From Bacteroidota bacterium (lineage in GTDB: Bacteria; Bacteroidota; Bacteroidia; AKYH767-A; OLB10): DNA of 64,000 bases. This document shows positions 4,515 through 58,589 of the stretch, piece after piece (the first letter of the stretch is position 1; every line of letters begins with the position of its first letter). The stretch spans positions 1-64,000 of the forward strand of contig JAGVTU010000017.1 of NCBI GenBank assembly GCA_019136655.1, written 5' to 3'. The notes beneath the pieces were generated by a model, which made no database searches, was not told where the DNA came from, and saw nothing but the letters and a program-made list of their open reading frames with translations. The position numbers and the translations under genes are program-made.

Positions 4515-5054
4515 ATGGCAAAAGCAAAAAAAGCAAAAAAAGCAACTGCCAAAAAGAAGGCATCCAAGCCGGCACGTAAAGCCTCAGCAAAAAAAGTGGT
4601 AAAGAAAAAATCAGCCACAAAAAAGAAAGCTACTAAGAAAAAAGCTGCTCCAAAAAAGAAGGCTGCAACTAAAAAGAAAGCGGCACCGAAGAAAAAAGTA
4701 GCAACTAAGAAGAAGGCAACAAAGAAAAAAGCAGCAACTAAAAAGAAAGCAGCTCCAAAGAAAAAGGCAGCTACCAAAAAGAAAGCAGTTGCTAAGAAAC
4801 CTGCTGCACCAAAACCGGTTGCTAAAAAACCTGTAGCAAAGAAGCCTGCTGCTCCAAAGCCTGCTCCTGAACCTACACAAAGCAAACCGGAAAATTTTGT
4901 TTACGAAACTGAAATAGTAGAGATTATTCGGCCAATGCCGGTGGATATGGATGATGAGAAAATGCCTGATGAAAAGGACATCATGGATGATAACATGACA
5001 TTCAACGATGACTTATTCAGTGGTTCGTCAGGTGACGATGATGATGATTTTTAG
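4515..5054 (+). CDS. Histone H1-like Lys/Ala-rich protein with acidic C-terminal tail
   Basis: 179-residue protein with a sharply bipartite charge pattern. Residues 1-113 are almost only Lys, Ala, Thr and Pro and contain tandem hexads of the type KKKAAP/KKKAAT (41-91) followed by KKPAAPKPVA segments, like bacterial H1/Hc1-type nucleoid proteins and the C-terminal tail of eukaryotic H1. Residues 131-179 contain 19 Asp/Glu and end in five Asp before Phe, opposite in charge. The basic part is expected to bind DNA or RNA; the acidic tail is unusual and could be autoinhibitory or bind another basic protein. No globular domain is visible. It has its own promoter. The cognate DNA role is inferred from composition only. 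Confidence 0.8.
   Translation: MAKAKKAKKATAKKKASKPARKASAKKVVKKKSATKKKATKKKAAPKKKAATKKKAAPKKKVATKKKATKKKAATKKKAAPKKKAATKKKAVAKKPAAPKPVAKKPVAKKPAAPKPAPEPTQSKPENFVYETEIVEIIRPMPVDMDDEKMPDEKDIMDDNMTFNDDLFSGSSGDDDDDF
4635..4787 (+). repeat. In-frame 18-bp (hexapeptide) tandem repeats
   Basis: About nine imperfect units coding KKKAA[PT], one shortened to a pentad KKKAT, within the H1-like gene. Codons for Lys and Ala alternate between units (aaa/aag, gca/gcg/gct), so the repeat is older than its present base sequence or under protein-level selection. Confidence 0.85.
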
Positions 5055-47839: not shown

Positions 47840-50269
47840 ATGAAAGCACTAAAGTGGATTTTAATTGTTTTGTTTTTCTTGATTCTATTATCAGGCATTG
47901 GTGTCTTGTTTTGGTTGCATTATCTGCTTCCTGACTACAACGGTAAGATAAATTCGAATTTGCTGAGTAAGGACGTGGATGTGTATTATGATAATTATGC
48001 GATTCCCCATATTTATGCGCAGAATGAGAATGATGCATGGTTTGCATTGGGCTATGTACATGCTCAGGAAAGACTTTTTCAGATGGAAATGTTGCGCAGA
48101 GTAGGAGCAGGGAGACTTTCAGAAATTTTCGGAGCAGATTTGATTAATATTGATAAACTTTTCAGGGCACTTGACATTAGTGGCATTGCTCACAGGTCAG
48201 CCGAAAAATATTTTTCAGGATCGGATTCAGCTTATCAGCAACTTACATTATCGTATCTTAAAGGAATTAACAGTTACATTGATAAAGGTAAAACCCCTGT
48301 TGAGTTTACATTGCTCGGTATCCCTAAAACAAAGTTTACTGTGGAAGATGTTTATCTCATATCAGGTTATATGGGATTCAGTTTCACAGAAGCATTACGG
48401 AGTGATCCCGTTACAGATTTCATTGCAACGCATTGGGGATTGCCGTACTACAATGATTTAGCGCATCATTACACATCCGATTTGGGTGCTCGTATTCCTG
48501 TGAGCAATCAGCGCGATACAATTATTCATTCTGCCATTGTTGCCATGTCGAAGTTGCTGAAAGAGAAACTGCCGGTGAGCATTTGGAGTGGCAGCAACAG
48601 CTGGGTAGTAGCTCCCTGGCGATCATCATCAGGGAAGGTATTGTTTGAAAACGATACACATATCGGACATGCTTCTCCTTCGGTGTGGTATGAAGCACAT
48701 ATTGAATGTCCTGGATTAAGTTTGTATGGAAATTTCCTTGCAGGATTTCCGTTTCCGCTGATAGGACATACACAGGAGCGTGCCTGGGGTATGACCATGC
48801 TCGAAAATGATGATTTTAATTTTTATAAAGAGAAACCTAACCCTGCTAATGAAAATCAGTATTGGCACAATGGTGAATGGAAAGATTACACACAGCGGCA
48901 GGAAATTATTAAGGTGAAAGGTCAGCAAGATGTTGTATATACAGTAAAAAACAGTGTTCACGGACCTGTAATATTCGACAATCAACTGCATGGACCGGTG
49001 AAGCAAATGGATAGCACACTCACAGTTCCTGTAACGGCATGGTGGGTTTATTCTCAACAGGAAGCACGCACGGTTCAGGCAGCCTACAGGCTTTGTCATT
49101 CTCATAATTTGAATGAAATGGCAGAAGCTGCTGCTATGATAGATGCTCCTGGTATAAACCTGATGTATGGAGATAAAGAAGGTAATATTGCCTGGTGGGC
49201 AACAGGAAGACTTTATAAACTTCCTGAAGGTACTGATGAGCGACTATTGCTTGATGGCAGTAATGGAAAAGATGACAGCATCACATGGTTGCCTTTTTCA
49301 GAAAATCCGAAGTGCGTAAATCCCGTTACCGGTTTCATCTATACAGCCAACAATCAGCCCGACAGTGTAAATGGTTTCTTATTGCCGGGTTACTATGCTC
49401 CCAATGACAGAGCTGAGCGTATCCTTCAGCTTTTGCAACGTAAACCATTATTGAATATTGATGATATGCGGCTTATGGCCTTGGATGATACAAGTATTCT
49501 TAAAGTGGAGCTGAAGAATGTGATTTGTAATATTCTGGAACCTGTGAGAAAAGATTCATTTGAAACGTCAGTATTTAATATTCTGAAAAACTGGAAAGGC
49601 TCTCATAGTTTGGATGACAACGGTCCTGTGGTTTTTTACAACTTCTTAGCTGAGTTGTTTCAGAATACGATGGAGGATGAACTGGGCTATGAAAGATATC
49701 ATGAGTTTATCAACGGACATACCATGAAGAACTCATATTTACGTTTGTGTCTTAATGATTCATCGTTGTGGTGGGACAATGTGCTTACACGAGACAGACG
49801 TGAAACAAGAAGTGAAATAATGGAAAAGTCTTTTCACAGTTGTGTGCAACTGATTAAAAACAAATATGGCAGTGATGCTGCAAAGTGGCACTGGGGAAAT
49901 GTGCATACATTGCAGTGCGCTCACATACTCGGCAGACAAAAGCCTCTCGATAAAATTTTTTATGCCCCTAAAGTTGCAATTGCCGGTGGTAATGAAACTA
50001 TCAACAGTCAAGGGTTTGCGCTCGACACTACAGGATTTTTCCCTGTTATATATGGACCGGCTATGCGTGTTACACTTGATTTTGCTGACATCGGAAATGC
50101 CACAAGCGTGCTTCCCGGAGGACAGAGTGGGTATTTCTACTCACCCCATTATCACGATCAGCTAAAACTTTATGCTGCAGGAAAATATCGCCCAATGCTG
50201 ATGAACCGCAAAGAAATTGAACGCTTATCCAAGAAGCATTTTCTTTTCAAAAGTCAGAAAAGCGAATGA
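47840..50269 (+). CDS. Penicillin acylase family Ntn-hydrolase
   Basis: 809 residues. An N-terminal hydrophobic segment (5-25) anchors or exports it. The self-cleavage site is SGSNSWVV (about 250-257): cleavage before Ser252 would create the N-terminal catalytic Ser. VLFENDTHIGHASPSVW carries the following Asn/His region, and TANNQP the later one. Family members cleave amides such as penicillins, acyl-homoserine lactones or N-acyl amino acids; the substrate here is unknown, and quorum-signal degradation is only one option. The stop directly faces the response-regulator stop (50269/50270). Confidence 0.9.
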   Translation: MKALKWILIVLFFLILLSGIGVLFWLHYLLPDYNGKINSNLLSKDVDVYYDNYAIPHIYAQNENDAWFALGYVHAQERLFQMEMLRRVGAGRLSEIFGADLINIDKLFRALDISGIAHRSAEKYFSGSDSAYQQLTLSYLKGINSYIDKGKTPVEFTLLGIPKTKFTVEDVYLISGYMGFSFTEALRSDPVTDFIATHWGLPYYNDLAHHYTSDLGARIPVSNQRDTIIHSAIVAMSKLLKEKLPVSIWSGSNSWVVAPWRSSSGKVLFENDTHIGHASPSVWYEAHIECPGLSLYGNFLAGFPFPLIGHTQERAWGMTMLENDDFNFYKEKPNPANENQYWHNGEWKDYTQRQEIIKVKGQQDVVYTVKNSVHGPVIFDNQLHGPVKQMDSTLTVPVTAWWVYSQQEARTVQAAYRLCHSHNLNEMAEAAAMIDAPGINLMYGDKEGNIAWWATGRLYKLPEGTDERLLLDGSNGKDDSITWLPFSENPKCVNPVTGFIYTANNQPDSVNGFLLPGYYAPNDRAERILQLLQRKPLLNIDDMRLMALDDTSILKVELKNVICNILEPVRKDSFETSVFNILKNWKGSHSLDDNGPVVFYNFLAELFQNTMEDELGYERYHEFINGHTMKNSYLRLCLNDSSLWWDNVLTRDRRETRSEIMEKSFHSCVQLIKNKYGSDAAKWHWGNVHTLQCAHILGRQKPLDKIFYAPKVAIAGGNETINSQGFALDTTGFFPVIYGPAMRVTLDFADIGNATSVLPGGQSGYFYSPHYHDQLKLYAAGKYRPMLMNRKEIERLSKKHFLFKSQKSE

Positions 50270-51019
50270 TTATTCAATGTTTCCTTTAAAGCGATACCCT
50301 TCACCATATACAGCCTTTATGTAGTTGATGGCAGAATGAATGGCTAGTTTTCTTTTTAAATTTTTGATGTGACTATACAAAAAATCAAATGGTAAGTCAT
50401 CATCAGTGTTGTGCTTAAGTACTTGTGTAGCCAATACTTCGTGAGGTATAATCTGATTAGGATTAGACATAAAATATTTCAGCAGTTCAAACTCAGCACG
50501 GGTAAGATGCAATTGTTTCTTGTTTACCCAAACACGATATTCTTCCTGGCTTATTTCAATATCTCCAAACCTTTGTCTGTGACTGTAATTAATATTATTC
50601 CTTTTGTTATACAGGTTTTTCAAACGTGCACTTATCAATGCAAGACTATATGGTTTTACAAAAACATCATCAGAGCCTTTTAAGAGTGCATTTACAACTT
50701 CACTCTCTATTGATTTTTCCAACAGCATGATGATATTGCCGCTAAACATAATTTCACTTGCTTTATCTATCAGCTGACATGATTCATCATATTGTAATGC
50801 ATCACCCAAAATAATAAAGTCAAATGCTTCATTCTGTAACTTGCTTATTGCATGAGATGCATTTGAAGTAATGTGACATTCAAAATGATCAGTAGATAAA
50901 TATTCCTGCAATTGCACGATGTATTCAGTGCGGTTATTTATTACAAGTACGCTTATAGGTTTGCCAGCTGTTGTAGCCATCGGTAGTGGAATTGTTAATG
51001 TATCAGATCGTAATCTCAT
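50270..51019 (-). CDS. Orphan OmpR-type regulator with degenerate receiver domain
   Basis: 249 residues. The receiver-like part (about 22-140) lacks the conserved acidic pair (Asn28, Asn29 in VINNR) and the phospho-acceptor Asp: in FDFIILGDALQ the expected position is Gly72, with an Asp one residue later. The conserved Lys122 in VFVKPY remains; the switch Thr/Ser before it (MLLEKS region) is not obvious. The C-terminal winged helix (about 150-248, LTRAEFELLKYFMSNPNQIIPHEVL, SHIKNLKRKL, VYGEGYRF) looks intact. No histidine kinase is adjacent. Phosphorylation-independent regulation is inferred. Met14 (50980) is an alternative start. Confidence 0.85.
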   Translation of the reverse strand: MRLRSDTLTIPLPMATTAGKPISVLVINNRTEYIVQLQEYLSTDHFECHITSNASHAISKLQNEAFDFIILGDALQYDESCQLIDKASEIMFSGNIIMLLEKSIESEVVNALLKGSDDVFVKPYSLALISARLKNLYNKRNNINYSHRQRFGDIEISQEEYRVWVNKKQLHLTRAEFELLKYFMSNPNQIIPHEVLATQVLKHNTDDDLPFDFLYSHIKNLKRKLAIHSAINYIKAVYGEGYRFKGNIE

Positions 51020-51068: not shown

Positions 51069-51122
51069 GTTCACACAACAAATATATACGTTCACCTAAA
51101 TATTTAAACAGTTCGCCTAAAT
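51069..51122 (-). promoter_or_regulatory. Three 21-bp-spaced GTTCRC repeats over the regulator promoter
   Basis: GTTCAC at 51069-51074 and 51090-51095 and GTTCGC at 51111-51116 recur at exactly 21 bp; the last two extend to GTTCRCCTAAAT (51090-51101, 51111-51122). Read on the minus strand they are TTTAGGYGAAC direct repeats, one on each side of a -7 box. The regulator starts about 50 bp downstream, so autoregulation by its winged helix is likely but unshown. Confidence 0.55.
51079..51086 (-). promoter_or_regulatory. -7 promoter element of the orphan regulator
   Basis: On the minus strand TATATTTG is an exact TAnnTTTG match. It lies within the 21-bp repeat array, 60 bp before the ATG at 51019. 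Confidence 0.5.
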
Positions 51123-55555: not shown

Positions 55556-56431
55556 TTGAATTCATTGCAGAAAAATATTAAACTAATAGAATGTCCGCGT
55601 GATGCCATGCAGGGTTTGCATGATTTTATTCCAACTCAACTGAAGGCAGAGTACATCAACATGCTTCTTAGAGTAGGATTCGACACTTTAGATTTTGGGA
55701 GCTTTGTTTCACCCAAAGCCATACCTCAAATGAAGGATACTGCAGAGGTGCTGAGTATGCTTGATTTGTCGTCCTCACAAACAAAACTCTTAGCCATCAT
55801 AGCCAATCAGCGTGGTGCCGAAGATGCTGTTCAGCATGCGGCAATATCTTACCTGGGTTTTCCGTTTTCTGTTTCAGAAACTTTTCAGTTGCGCAATACC
55901 AACAGCACCATAGCACAATCCTTCGACACTGTGAAACGAATTCAGGAACTCTGCTCAAAGAACGGGAAGACACTGGTTATTTACATTTCAATGGGATTTG
56001 GCAATCCGTATGGTGATCCCTGGAATACAGAAATAGTAGGCCAATGGACAGAAAAGATGATTCAGGAAGGAATTCACATCATTTCGCTTGCCGACACTGT
56101 GGGTATGGCTAAAAAAGAAGATATTTCTTATTTATTTTCAGAGCTTATTCCTGCTTATCCGGGTATTGAGTTTGGGGCACATCTTCATGTTACGCCACAA
56201 GCTTGGGAGGAGAAACTGAATGCCGCTGCTGAGCATGGTTGCAGCCGTTTTGACATGGCAATTAGAGGTTTTGGAGGGTGCCCGATGGCAGAAGATCGCT
56301 TAACCGGAAACCTTGCAACCGAAAATGCAGTAAAATACTTTTTAAAGAATAACTACCATTTAACAATTGATAGAGAAAAACTTAATGAATGCATTTTATT
56401 TTCAAACCGCATCTTTTATGTTGCTGATTAA
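55556..56431 (+). CDS. Hydroxymethylglutaryl-CoA lyase-like protein
   Basis: 291-residue TIM-barrel enzyme of the DRE-TIM family. HMG-CoA lyase splits HMG-CoA into acetyl-CoA and acetoacetate (leucine degradation). Motifs are IECPRDAMQG (10-19, with the catalytic Arg-Asp pair), the metal-binding His pair in HLHV and RGFGGCPMAEDRLTGN with the catalytic-loop Cys. The usual VGPRDGLQ is altered to ECPRDAMQ. The only start before the conserved block is TTG at 55556. A closely related homoaldolase specificity cannot be excluded. The next gene starts 4 bp after its stop. Confidence 0.82.
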   Translation: MNSLQKNIKLIECPRDAMQGLHDFIPTQLKAEYINMLLRVGFDTLDFGSFVSPKAIPQMKDTAEVLSMLDLSSSQTKLLAIIANQRGAEDAVQHAAISYLGFPFSVSETFQLRNTNSTIAQSFDTVKRIQELCSKNGKTLVIYISMGFGNPYGDPWNTEIVGQWTEKMIQEGIHIISLADTVGMAKKEDISYLFSELIPAYPGIEFGAHLHVTPQAWEEKLNAAAEHGCSRFDMAIRGFGGCPMAEDRLTGNLATENAVKYFLKNNYHLTIDREKLNECILFSNRIFYVAD

Positions 56432-56435
56432 AAAA

Positions 56436-58589
56436 ATGAAACTTAAAGGATTACGCAATCTGTTCTTAACAACGGCATTGGTCCTATTTATTGCGCCTGC
56501 TTTGTTTGCACAGAATGGAAGTCTTGAGTTATTAGGCAATGTTAAGCAAAACGGAAAAGGCCTTGAGGGTGCCGAGATTAAGGTCATGAAAGGCAATGAA
56601 CAAGTGGATAATATACTTTCCGGCAACAACGGTAAGTTTATAATTAATCTCGACCTTGATGCAGTTTATACATTGCTGTTTACCAAGAGTGGTTGTGTTA
56701 CCAAATCCATCATTTTTGATACACGTGTACCTGAACCTATCAAAAATCAACTTCTATCCAACAGAAAATTCGGTATAGAATTGTTTAAGATACCTGAAGG
56801 AGTTGAGCAACCAAAGGAACTCGACAAACCTGTTGCAAAGTGGAGTTGGAATGATTCGTATGACGACTTTGATTATGACTTGGAATATTCAAATGCACGT
56901 AAGCAGGAGAATGAGCAGATTAAAAAGGTGTTAGAGGAACAGGCTATAGCACAGGAAAAGCAACGAAAAGACTCTTTGGCACATGCACGACTTGACTCCA
57001 TAAACAAAGCAAAAGCAGCAGAACAAGCACGTTTGGCTGAATTAGCAATGAAAAAGAAAGAAGAAGAGCAGCAGAAAAAACTGGAAGCAGAACGTCAGGC
57101 AGCATTTGCAGCAGCAAAAAAGCGAGAAGAAGACAGTCTGAGAGCAGAACAACTGAAAGCTGATGCACTTGAAAGGGCCAGACTTGCAGAGTTGGAAAAA
57201 GCCCGTAAAGACAGTATTGAAAAGGCTAAGGCATTGGCTGAACAACTTGCAAAAGAAAAAGCCGCTGAAGAAAAACGGTTAGCCGCTCTTGAGAAAGCAC
57301 GTCAGGATAGTATTGCAAAGGCAGATGCTGCTGAAAGAGCCAGACTTGCAGCACTCGAAAAAGCTCGGCAAGATAGTTTGGCAAGGGTAAAGGCCGAAGA
57401 GGACCGATTGGCAAGGGAAGCAGCGAAAGAACAAGCTCGGCTGGCTGCACTGGAAAAGGCGCGACAGGACAGTTTAGCTAAAGCACAAGCAGCAGAAGAA
57501 AGACGTCTGGCAGCATTGGAAAAAGCTCGTCAGGACAGTATAGCAAAGGCTGAAGCAGCTGCTAAAGCAGCAGAAGCAGCCAGATTAGCTGCTCTTGAAA
57601 AAGCCCGCAAAGACAGTTTGGAAAAAGCAGAAGCTGTAGCAAAAGAAAACGAACGATTACGTCTGGCAGCATTGGAAAAAGCACGACAGGATAGTATAGC
57701 TAAAGCCGAAGCAGCCGCTAAAGTAGCCGAAGCAGCTCGTTTGGCTGCTCTCGAGAAAGCAAGAAAAGACAGCATTGCCCGTGCAGAGGCAGAAGCAAAA
57801 GAACAGGAACGATTACGTCTTGCAGCACTGGAAAAAGCCCGTCAGGATTCTATAGCAAATGCAAAAGCTTTAGCTGAACAAAAAGCTAAAGAAGAGGCAC
57901 TTGAAAAGGCCCGTTTGGCGGCATTGGAAAAAGCCCGTCAGGATAGTATTGCAAAAGCAGAAGCATTAGCAAAAGAGCAGGAACGTTTAAGACAGTTAGC
58001 ATTAGAGAAAGCCCGTCAGGATTCAATAGCCAATGCCAAAGCATTAGCAGAAAAGAAAGCAAAAGAAGAGGCATTGGAGAAAGCCCGTTTGGCAGCATTG
58101 GAAAAAGCTCGTCAGGATAGCATATCAAAAGCCGAGGCTGCAGCCAGAGCCAAAGCTGAGGCTGATGCCAAAGCACGTGCTGCTGCCGAAGCAAGAGCAA
58201 AATTCGTAGCCGACAGCACAGCCAGAGCTGAAGCAGCAGCTGCCAAAAAACGTCAGCAGGAAGAAGCTGAGGCAAGGCGATTGCGGGAACTGGAAGAGCA
58301 GAAACAGGCTTTAGCCAAGGCGAATGAAAAATCAGAATCAAAGCAAACGACTGCTTCGTTACCTGTATTTGAAGACACCAACTATGCTGAAGGTCTTACT
58401 GAAGAGACCATCAACGAATCGAACAGGAAGATATTCAGAACGATTATCAAAAAATCGAATACAACTGATGTGTTTTCAAAAGTGGTGTACAACTGGGGAG
58501 GTATTTATTACTTCAAAAACACAACCAGTATGTCAGAAGCAAATTACAACAATGAGTTGAAAAAATATAAAGATCAGTTAGGAAAATAA
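56436..58589 (+). CDS. Secreted coiled-coil repeat protein with LEKARxDS repeats
   Basis: 717 residues from this ATG. A signal peptide (about 1-27, ending LFAQ) is followed by a carboxypeptidase-regulatory-type beta-sandwich (NGSLELLGNVKQNGKGLEG, FIINLDLDAVYTLLFTKSGC). The middle is a long Ala/Lys/Glu/Arg-rich coiled coil with twelve copies of LEKAR[QK]DS at spacings of about 22, 26 or 32 residues. About the last 70 residues are non-repetitive (EDTNYAEGLTEETI, VVYNWGGIYYFKNTTSM). No function is known to me; a periplasmic linker or structural filament is inferred. The upstream ORF start at 56367 lies inside the lyase gene and would hide the signal peptide. Confidence 0.82.
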   Translation: MKLKGLRNLFLTTALVLFIAPALFAQNGSLELLGNVKQNGKGLEGAEIKVMKGNEQVDNILSGNNGKFIINLDLDAVYTLLFTKSGCVTKSIIFDTRVPEPIKNQLLSNRKFGIELFKIPEGVEQPKELDKPVAKWSWNDSYDDFDYDLEYSNARKQENEQIKKVLEEQAIAQEKQRKDSLAHARLDSINKAKAAEQARLAELAMKKKEEEQQKKLEAERQAAFAAAKKREEDSLRAEQLKADALERARLAELEKARKDSIEKAKALAEQLAKEKAAEEKRLAALEKARQDSIAKADAAERARLAALEKARQDSLARVKAEEDRLAREAAKEQARLAALEKARQDSLAKAQAAEERRLAALEKARQDSIAKAEAAAKAAEAARLAALEKARKDSLEKAEAVAKENERLRLAALEKARQDSIAKAEAAAKVAEAARLAALEKARKDSIARAEAEAKEQERLRLAALEKARQDSIANAKALAEQKAKEEALEKARLAALEKARQDSIAKAEALAKEQERLRQLALEKARQDSIANAKALAEKKAKEEALEKARLAALEKARQDSISKAEAAARAKAEADAKARAAAEARAKFVADSTARAEAAAAKKRQQEEAEARRLRELEEQKQALAKANEKSESKQTTASLPVFEDTNYAEGLTEETINESNRKIFRTIIKKSNTTDVFSKVVYNWGGIYYFKNTTSMSEANYNNELKKYKDQLGK
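57192..58128 (+). repeat. Twelve LEKAR[QK]DS repeat units
   Basis: The protein-level motif LEKAR[QK]DS followed by [ILS]-A-K/R recurs twelve times. Adjacent spacings include 22, 22, 32, 26 and 32 residues. The spacing of 22 is twice 11, which suggests hendecad coiled-coil periodicity. Confidence 0.85.

Follow-up and report, generated by a model that had tools for sequence, protein, structure and literature searches.

A receiver without a phosphorylation site in an orphan OmpR/PhoB-type regulator from Bacteroidota, and a model for its phosphorylation-independent activity

Can a response regulator act when its receiver domain has lost the phosphorylation site, and what would then set its activity? 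The question is raised by a gene in a 64,000-nt stretch of contig JAGVTU010000017.1 (Bacteroidota bacterium; this whole stretch is called the window), for which a first-pass annotation had proposed a receiver that cannot be phosphorylated joined to an intact OmpR-type DNA-binding half. The features discussed below are listed in Table 1.

Table 1. Features of the regulator locus, with window coordinates.
Feature	Coordinates	Strand	Basis
Pseudo-receiver OmpR/PhoB-type transcription factor gene	50270..51019	-	ORF of 249 aa as called, frame intact
Degenerate receiver domain, residues 22-140	50600..50956	-	Alignments and AlphaFold2 model
alpha4-beta5-alpha5 dimerisation face, residues 107-140	50600..50701	-	Alignment; interface pairs from PMC4511772
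Winged-helix DNA-binding domain, residues 150-246	50282..50572	-	PF00486, alignment, AlphaFold2 model
Three direct repeats in 21-bp phase, candidate operator, LytTR-like spacing	51069..51122	+	Repeat search, shuffles
TATATTTG, promoter-element match within the repeat array	51079..51086	-	TAnnTTTG consensus; putative role

The true start of the gene is probably M14 (position 50980, so that the gene would span 50270-50980), because the ortholog described below starts there and residues 1-20 have low confidence in the AlphaFold2 model. The C-terminal winged helix of the OmpR/PhoB subfamily (Trans_reg_C, PF00486) is matched by residues 168-244 (4.3e-15; 56 bits compared to a cut-off of 26.2), and the DNA-binding half is apparently intact, as annotated. 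Residues 24-133 match the receiver domain PF00072 with 27.1 bits (E 4.8e-6), which is under the curated cut-off of 30.2. None of the named NCBIfam equivalogs (e.g., PhoB, RprY) was reached (best score 99.7 bits with a cut-off of 296.2; RprY, 57.5 bits with a cut-off of 370), there was no Rfam match, and a scan of named genomes returned distant regulators only. The neighbouring genes bear out that no histidine kinase gene adjoins the regulator, which is thus an orphan.

The regulator was aligned with 26 other OmpR-type regulators from related genomes, one of which ends short of the acidic pair. The acidic-pair columns are occupied by N28 and N29, and the acceptor column holds G72, where 26 of the 26 other rows have Asp. 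L100 stands in the switch Thr/Ser column, E101 in that of the small T+1 residue, V119 in the switch Tyr column, and Q76 and S80 in the columns of the gamma-turn Pro and Gly. This leaves K122 as the sole active-site residue of the window protein, while the acceptor Asp, the Thr/Ser, and the Lys are present in every other aligned regulator. An Asp follows directly upon G72; the alignment places this Asp73 at D+1 (it is Asn in the ortholog), so that the reading which would have contradicted the first-pass annotation, with Asp73 as the acceptor, does not occur. Among the 41 receivers of the own genome, the regulator is the only one devoid of the acceptor Asp, which is present in 40 of the 40 others; the acidic pair is present in 39 of these 40, the exception (L258) having Glu-Lys. 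As judged from sequence, it is close to certain that the receiver cannot be phosphorylated on Asp.

A 242-aa ortholog with 40-41% identity is encoded in the congener genome G002. Both species share the gene order holA, AMP nucleosidase, a gene for 146-148 aa, and then the regulator. The flanking proteins are 72-82% identical between the window and G002, which indicates that the regulator evolves fast. At positions 28, 29, and 72, the comparison with homologues that the first-pass annotation had called for gave Asn, Asn, and Gly in the window protein and Lys, His, and Glu in the ortholog, in which the switch Thr/Ser is replaced by Ala and the equivalent of K122 by Thr. Since the ortholog in a second species is degenerate as well, with different residues, we consider the pseudo-receiver to be inherited. 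Active-site loss is found in both syntenic orthologs (two being known) and in no other compared regulator. The annotated lack of a phosphorylation site is thus upheld, with N28-N29 and G72 in place of the acidic residues, K122 kept, and a syntenic ortholog that is also degenerate. In the other two species of the genus, the gene was not found in genome G001, where two contigs end about this region (window about 42.7-58.0 kb), and a homologous stretch of the region was not found in genome G003; neither absence therefore bears on whether these species have the gene.

The surroundings of the gene show some further peculiarities. A penicillin-acylase-like gene with a weak PvdQ match (47840-50269) separates the 146-aa gene from the regulator; it is missing at the equivalent place of G002, and none of the three further species of the genus that were searched gave a match to it. 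The genes lying upstream of the ortholog (L083, 11454-13995) are unlike the smpB and Nramp-type genes of the window and resemble, by eye, a DNA-modification or restriction cluster; smpB of G002 is on another contig. Elsewhere in the window, positions 4515-5054 code for a Lys/Ala-rich protein (179 aa) in which AAPKKKAATKKK-like units recur and which, by eye, resembles histone H1, and positions 56367-58589 for a 740-aa protein whose long run of LAALEKARQDSIAKAEA-like repeats probably forms a coiled coil.

The receiver fold is recognisable (PF00072, AlphaFold2, Foldseek), the acceptor Asp is missing, and further catalytic residues are gone (N28, N29, L100). The regulator is a further case, of Bacteroidota type, of an already described class, the aspartate-less receivers (ALRs) or pseudo-receivers (PsRs). 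The AlphaFold2 model (pLDDT 89) keeps the alternating beta/alpha receiver fold, and Foldseek matched the receiver with TMt about 0.9, RitR being the top match with many OmpR-family entries scoring alike; the nearest folds are solved OmpR-family structures, RitR and HP1043 among them. With the ALR/PsR regulators (Maule 2015, PMC4395418; Bourret 2025, PMC12632262) the window protein has in common the receiver fold, the OmpR/PhoB output, the orphan gene, and the loss of the phospho-Asp and of the second acidic residue. About 45% of ALRs keep both the switch Thr/Ser and the Tyr, whereas the window protein has lost these too. Its acceptor substitute, Gly, occurs in 11% of ALRs and was without a solved structure in the 2015 survey (PMC4395418). 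Precedent for phosphorylation-independent action comes from ChxR (Chlamydia trachomatis) and HP1043 (Helicobacter pylori), two atypical OmpR/PhoB regulators whose dimerisation and DNA binding need no phosphorylation (PMC12632262, PMC3960148). These are from other lineages and we do not claim orthology from the likeness; dimerisation of the window protein is proposed here from conservation.

The two orthologs differ very unevenly along their length. Residues 22-106, which comprise the old active site, are 20% identical, compared to 56% for residues 107-140 (alpha4-beta5-alpha5) and 57% for the DNA-binding domain. In canonical pairs whose DNA-binding domains show comparable identity, the two receiver parts reach 49±7% and 70±7%. 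The excess of the dimerisation face over the rest of the receiver is 36 points here and 21±7 in canonical regulators; its retention is only moderately unusual, because canonical regulators also conserve this face better. Differences at the three codon positions amount to 62/40/66% in the first half of the receiver and to 30/25/59%, mostly third positions, in the DNA-binding domain. OmpR/PhoB interface contacts include Lys87-Glu107 and Asp97-Arg111 in RegX3 numbering (PMC4511772), which we transferred by counting from the active-site Lys. The second pair is kept as D118-R132. The first, a K/R-Glu pair, corresponds to V108-L128 here and to Ile-Leu in the ortholog, so that a salt bridge has given way to a hydrophobic pair in both; such residues might, on the other hand, make dimerisation weaker. 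Conservation is thus lowest in the old pocket half and the dimer face and DNA-binding domain are kept, which favours constitutive dimerisation over a conserved ligand pocket.

The origin of the pair was addressed with a maximum-likelihood tree. Canonical regulators make up the clade in which the two orthologs nest (98/96 support), and the branch of the pair is long, with a long-branch warning. The canonical members (L003-L012) come nearly all from the same order, from Bacteroidota genomes related to the own one; their DNA-binding domains are 36-43% identical to that of the window protein and they keep the full active site. Where flanks were read, a histidine kinase adjoins the regulator, both in the same clade (L009) and in a neighbouring one (L021). 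On this basis, the ancestor of the pair would have been a canonical kinase-linked regulator which lost the kinase and the phosphorylation chemistry.

What was computed here, namely the loss of the pocket, its inheritance in a second species, the selective retention of dimer face and DNA-binding domain, and a repeat array upstream, can be joined in one model. We consider it fairly likely that this orphan aspartate-less OmpR/PhoB factor is a constitutive, phosphorylation-independent DNA-binding dimer whose activity is set by the amount made. It would dimerise via the retained alpha4-beta5-alpha5 face and bind constitutively to tandem DNA sites, and its amount would probably be controlled via the operator of 21-bp-phased direct repeats in its own promoter.

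Several other explanations have to be weighed. The receiver might sense a small molecule or a redox state instead of phosphate, as is known for other pseudo-receivers (end products for JadR1 and RedZ, cysteine redox for RitR and Hp1021; PMC12632262). C48 lies 19 residues past the second acidic-pair position, as reported for the redox cysteine of Hp1021 (DD+19), but a Cys at this place is common among canonical relatives, and the ortholog has Tyr there. RitR of Streptococcus pneumoniae is likewise an Asp-less OmpR-type regulator, but its redox control depends on a single linker cysteine, and the window protein has cysteines at 48 and 81 only, none in the linker. As the pocket half varies more than any other part of the protein (20% identity between the orthologs), the proposal of the first-pass annotation that the altered receiver senses an internal state found no support. 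A conserved ligand pocket appears disfavoured, and we regard sensing by ligand or redox control, the main rival of the constitutive dimer, as unlikely as far as sequence can tell.

The strong conservation of residues 107-140 in both orthologs, including G-S-D-D-V-F and A-R-L-K-x-L-Y, would also fit a partner protein that holds or releases the receiver via its changed surfaces, the dimer face then being a surface for hetero-interaction; Rem, which is bound by MirA, is a precedent (PMC12632262). We judge this to be distinctly improbable, as no candidate partner is adjacent in the congener or in the window, where the neighbours are housekeeping genes and the penicillin-acylase-like gene. Even less probable, to a degree that we hardly expect it to hold, is decay of a former response regulator towards a pseudogene. 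The first half of the receiver diverges fast, as the codon-position differences given above illustrate, and the ortholog has lost all catalytic residues, but the frame is intact in both species, the DNA-binding domain differs mostly at third codon positions, and the dimer face and the 21-bp operator spacing are conserved. We thus prefer the constitutive dimer.

If activity depends on amount, the promoter gains importance. Between the gene and smpB are three repeat units, GTTCACACAACA at 51069, GTTCACCTAAAT at 51090, and GTTCGCCTAAAT at 51111, with 11/12 matches at 21-bp spacing. Of 1000 shuffles, none gave as good a repeat when spacings were limited to 20-22, and 6% did when any spacing of 10-59 was allowed. 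The element TAnnTTTG, which we take to be the Bacteroidota -7 promoter element, is matched within the array (Table 1). The region upstream of the ortholog contains a pair that is likewise spaced by 21 bp (L083, 11224 and 11245; p = 0.0045). LytTR-type operators consist of direct repeats, each about 9 nt long and separated by 11-13 nt (PMC4847170), and the array fits this geometry, with 9-nt units set 12 nt apart (21 bp from start to start); the repeat core resembles the AlgR site CCGTTCGTC (PMC4064291). LytTR proteins are encoded in 24 of 24 family genomes. From its sequence, the array may be predicted to be the binding site of a LytTR-type regulator, an OmpR-type protein being also conceivable. 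As repeats of this LytTR-like spacing precede the ortholog also, activity may be set by transcription.

Allowing one mismatch, the triple motif has about 40 forward matches in the 24 family genomes, some of them coding, compared to 5 for the reversed control; several genomes carry it upstream of genes for large secreted proteins. Autoregulation via the repeats is not claimed, because the motif is family-wide and occurs also in genomes without a detected ortholog; the motif probably marks the site of another regulator. Genome-wide enrichment of the paired motif was likewise discarded: four of the eight matches in the own genome are inside genes (rpoC, recA, sppA, and an outer-membrane-type ORF, as judged from the ORFs), where Gly-Glu codons produce the motif. 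The intergenic ones are confined to the regulator's promoter, C24:39159/39180, and C2:98586. Separately, each of the four species of the genus has three TTCRCC repeats in 21-bp phase in the gap upstream of a gene whose large, LamG-like product is secreted (L134, 2660-2706, on C24 of the own genome G000; L139, 2515-2562, in G002; L144; L147). The arrangement also precedes an apparent ortholog of this gene in another genus (L167).

A two-tier cascade, in which a LytTR response regulator acting via the 21-bp operator determines how much is made of a pseudo-receiver regulator that is a constitutive dimer, is a tentative extension that we find rather doubtful. If true, the operator would be shared with genes for large secreted cell-surface proteins in related genomes, and the second-tier regulator would have a dimer face in which a salt bridge is swapped for a hydrophobic contact.

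In one survey, pseudo-receivers made up about 6% of bacterial receivers, and in another aspartate-less ones made up about 4% (PMC12632262). The regulator is thus one more example from a common class. The on/off switching of bacterial pseudo-receivers has been called a mystery (PMC12632262), and the ortholog pair provides a case from Bacteroidota that allows a pseudo-receiver to be set against its kinase-linked relatives. The model predicts that such a regulator would dimerise by a rebuilt hydrophobic contact and be controlled by its synthesis, which is cheap to test.
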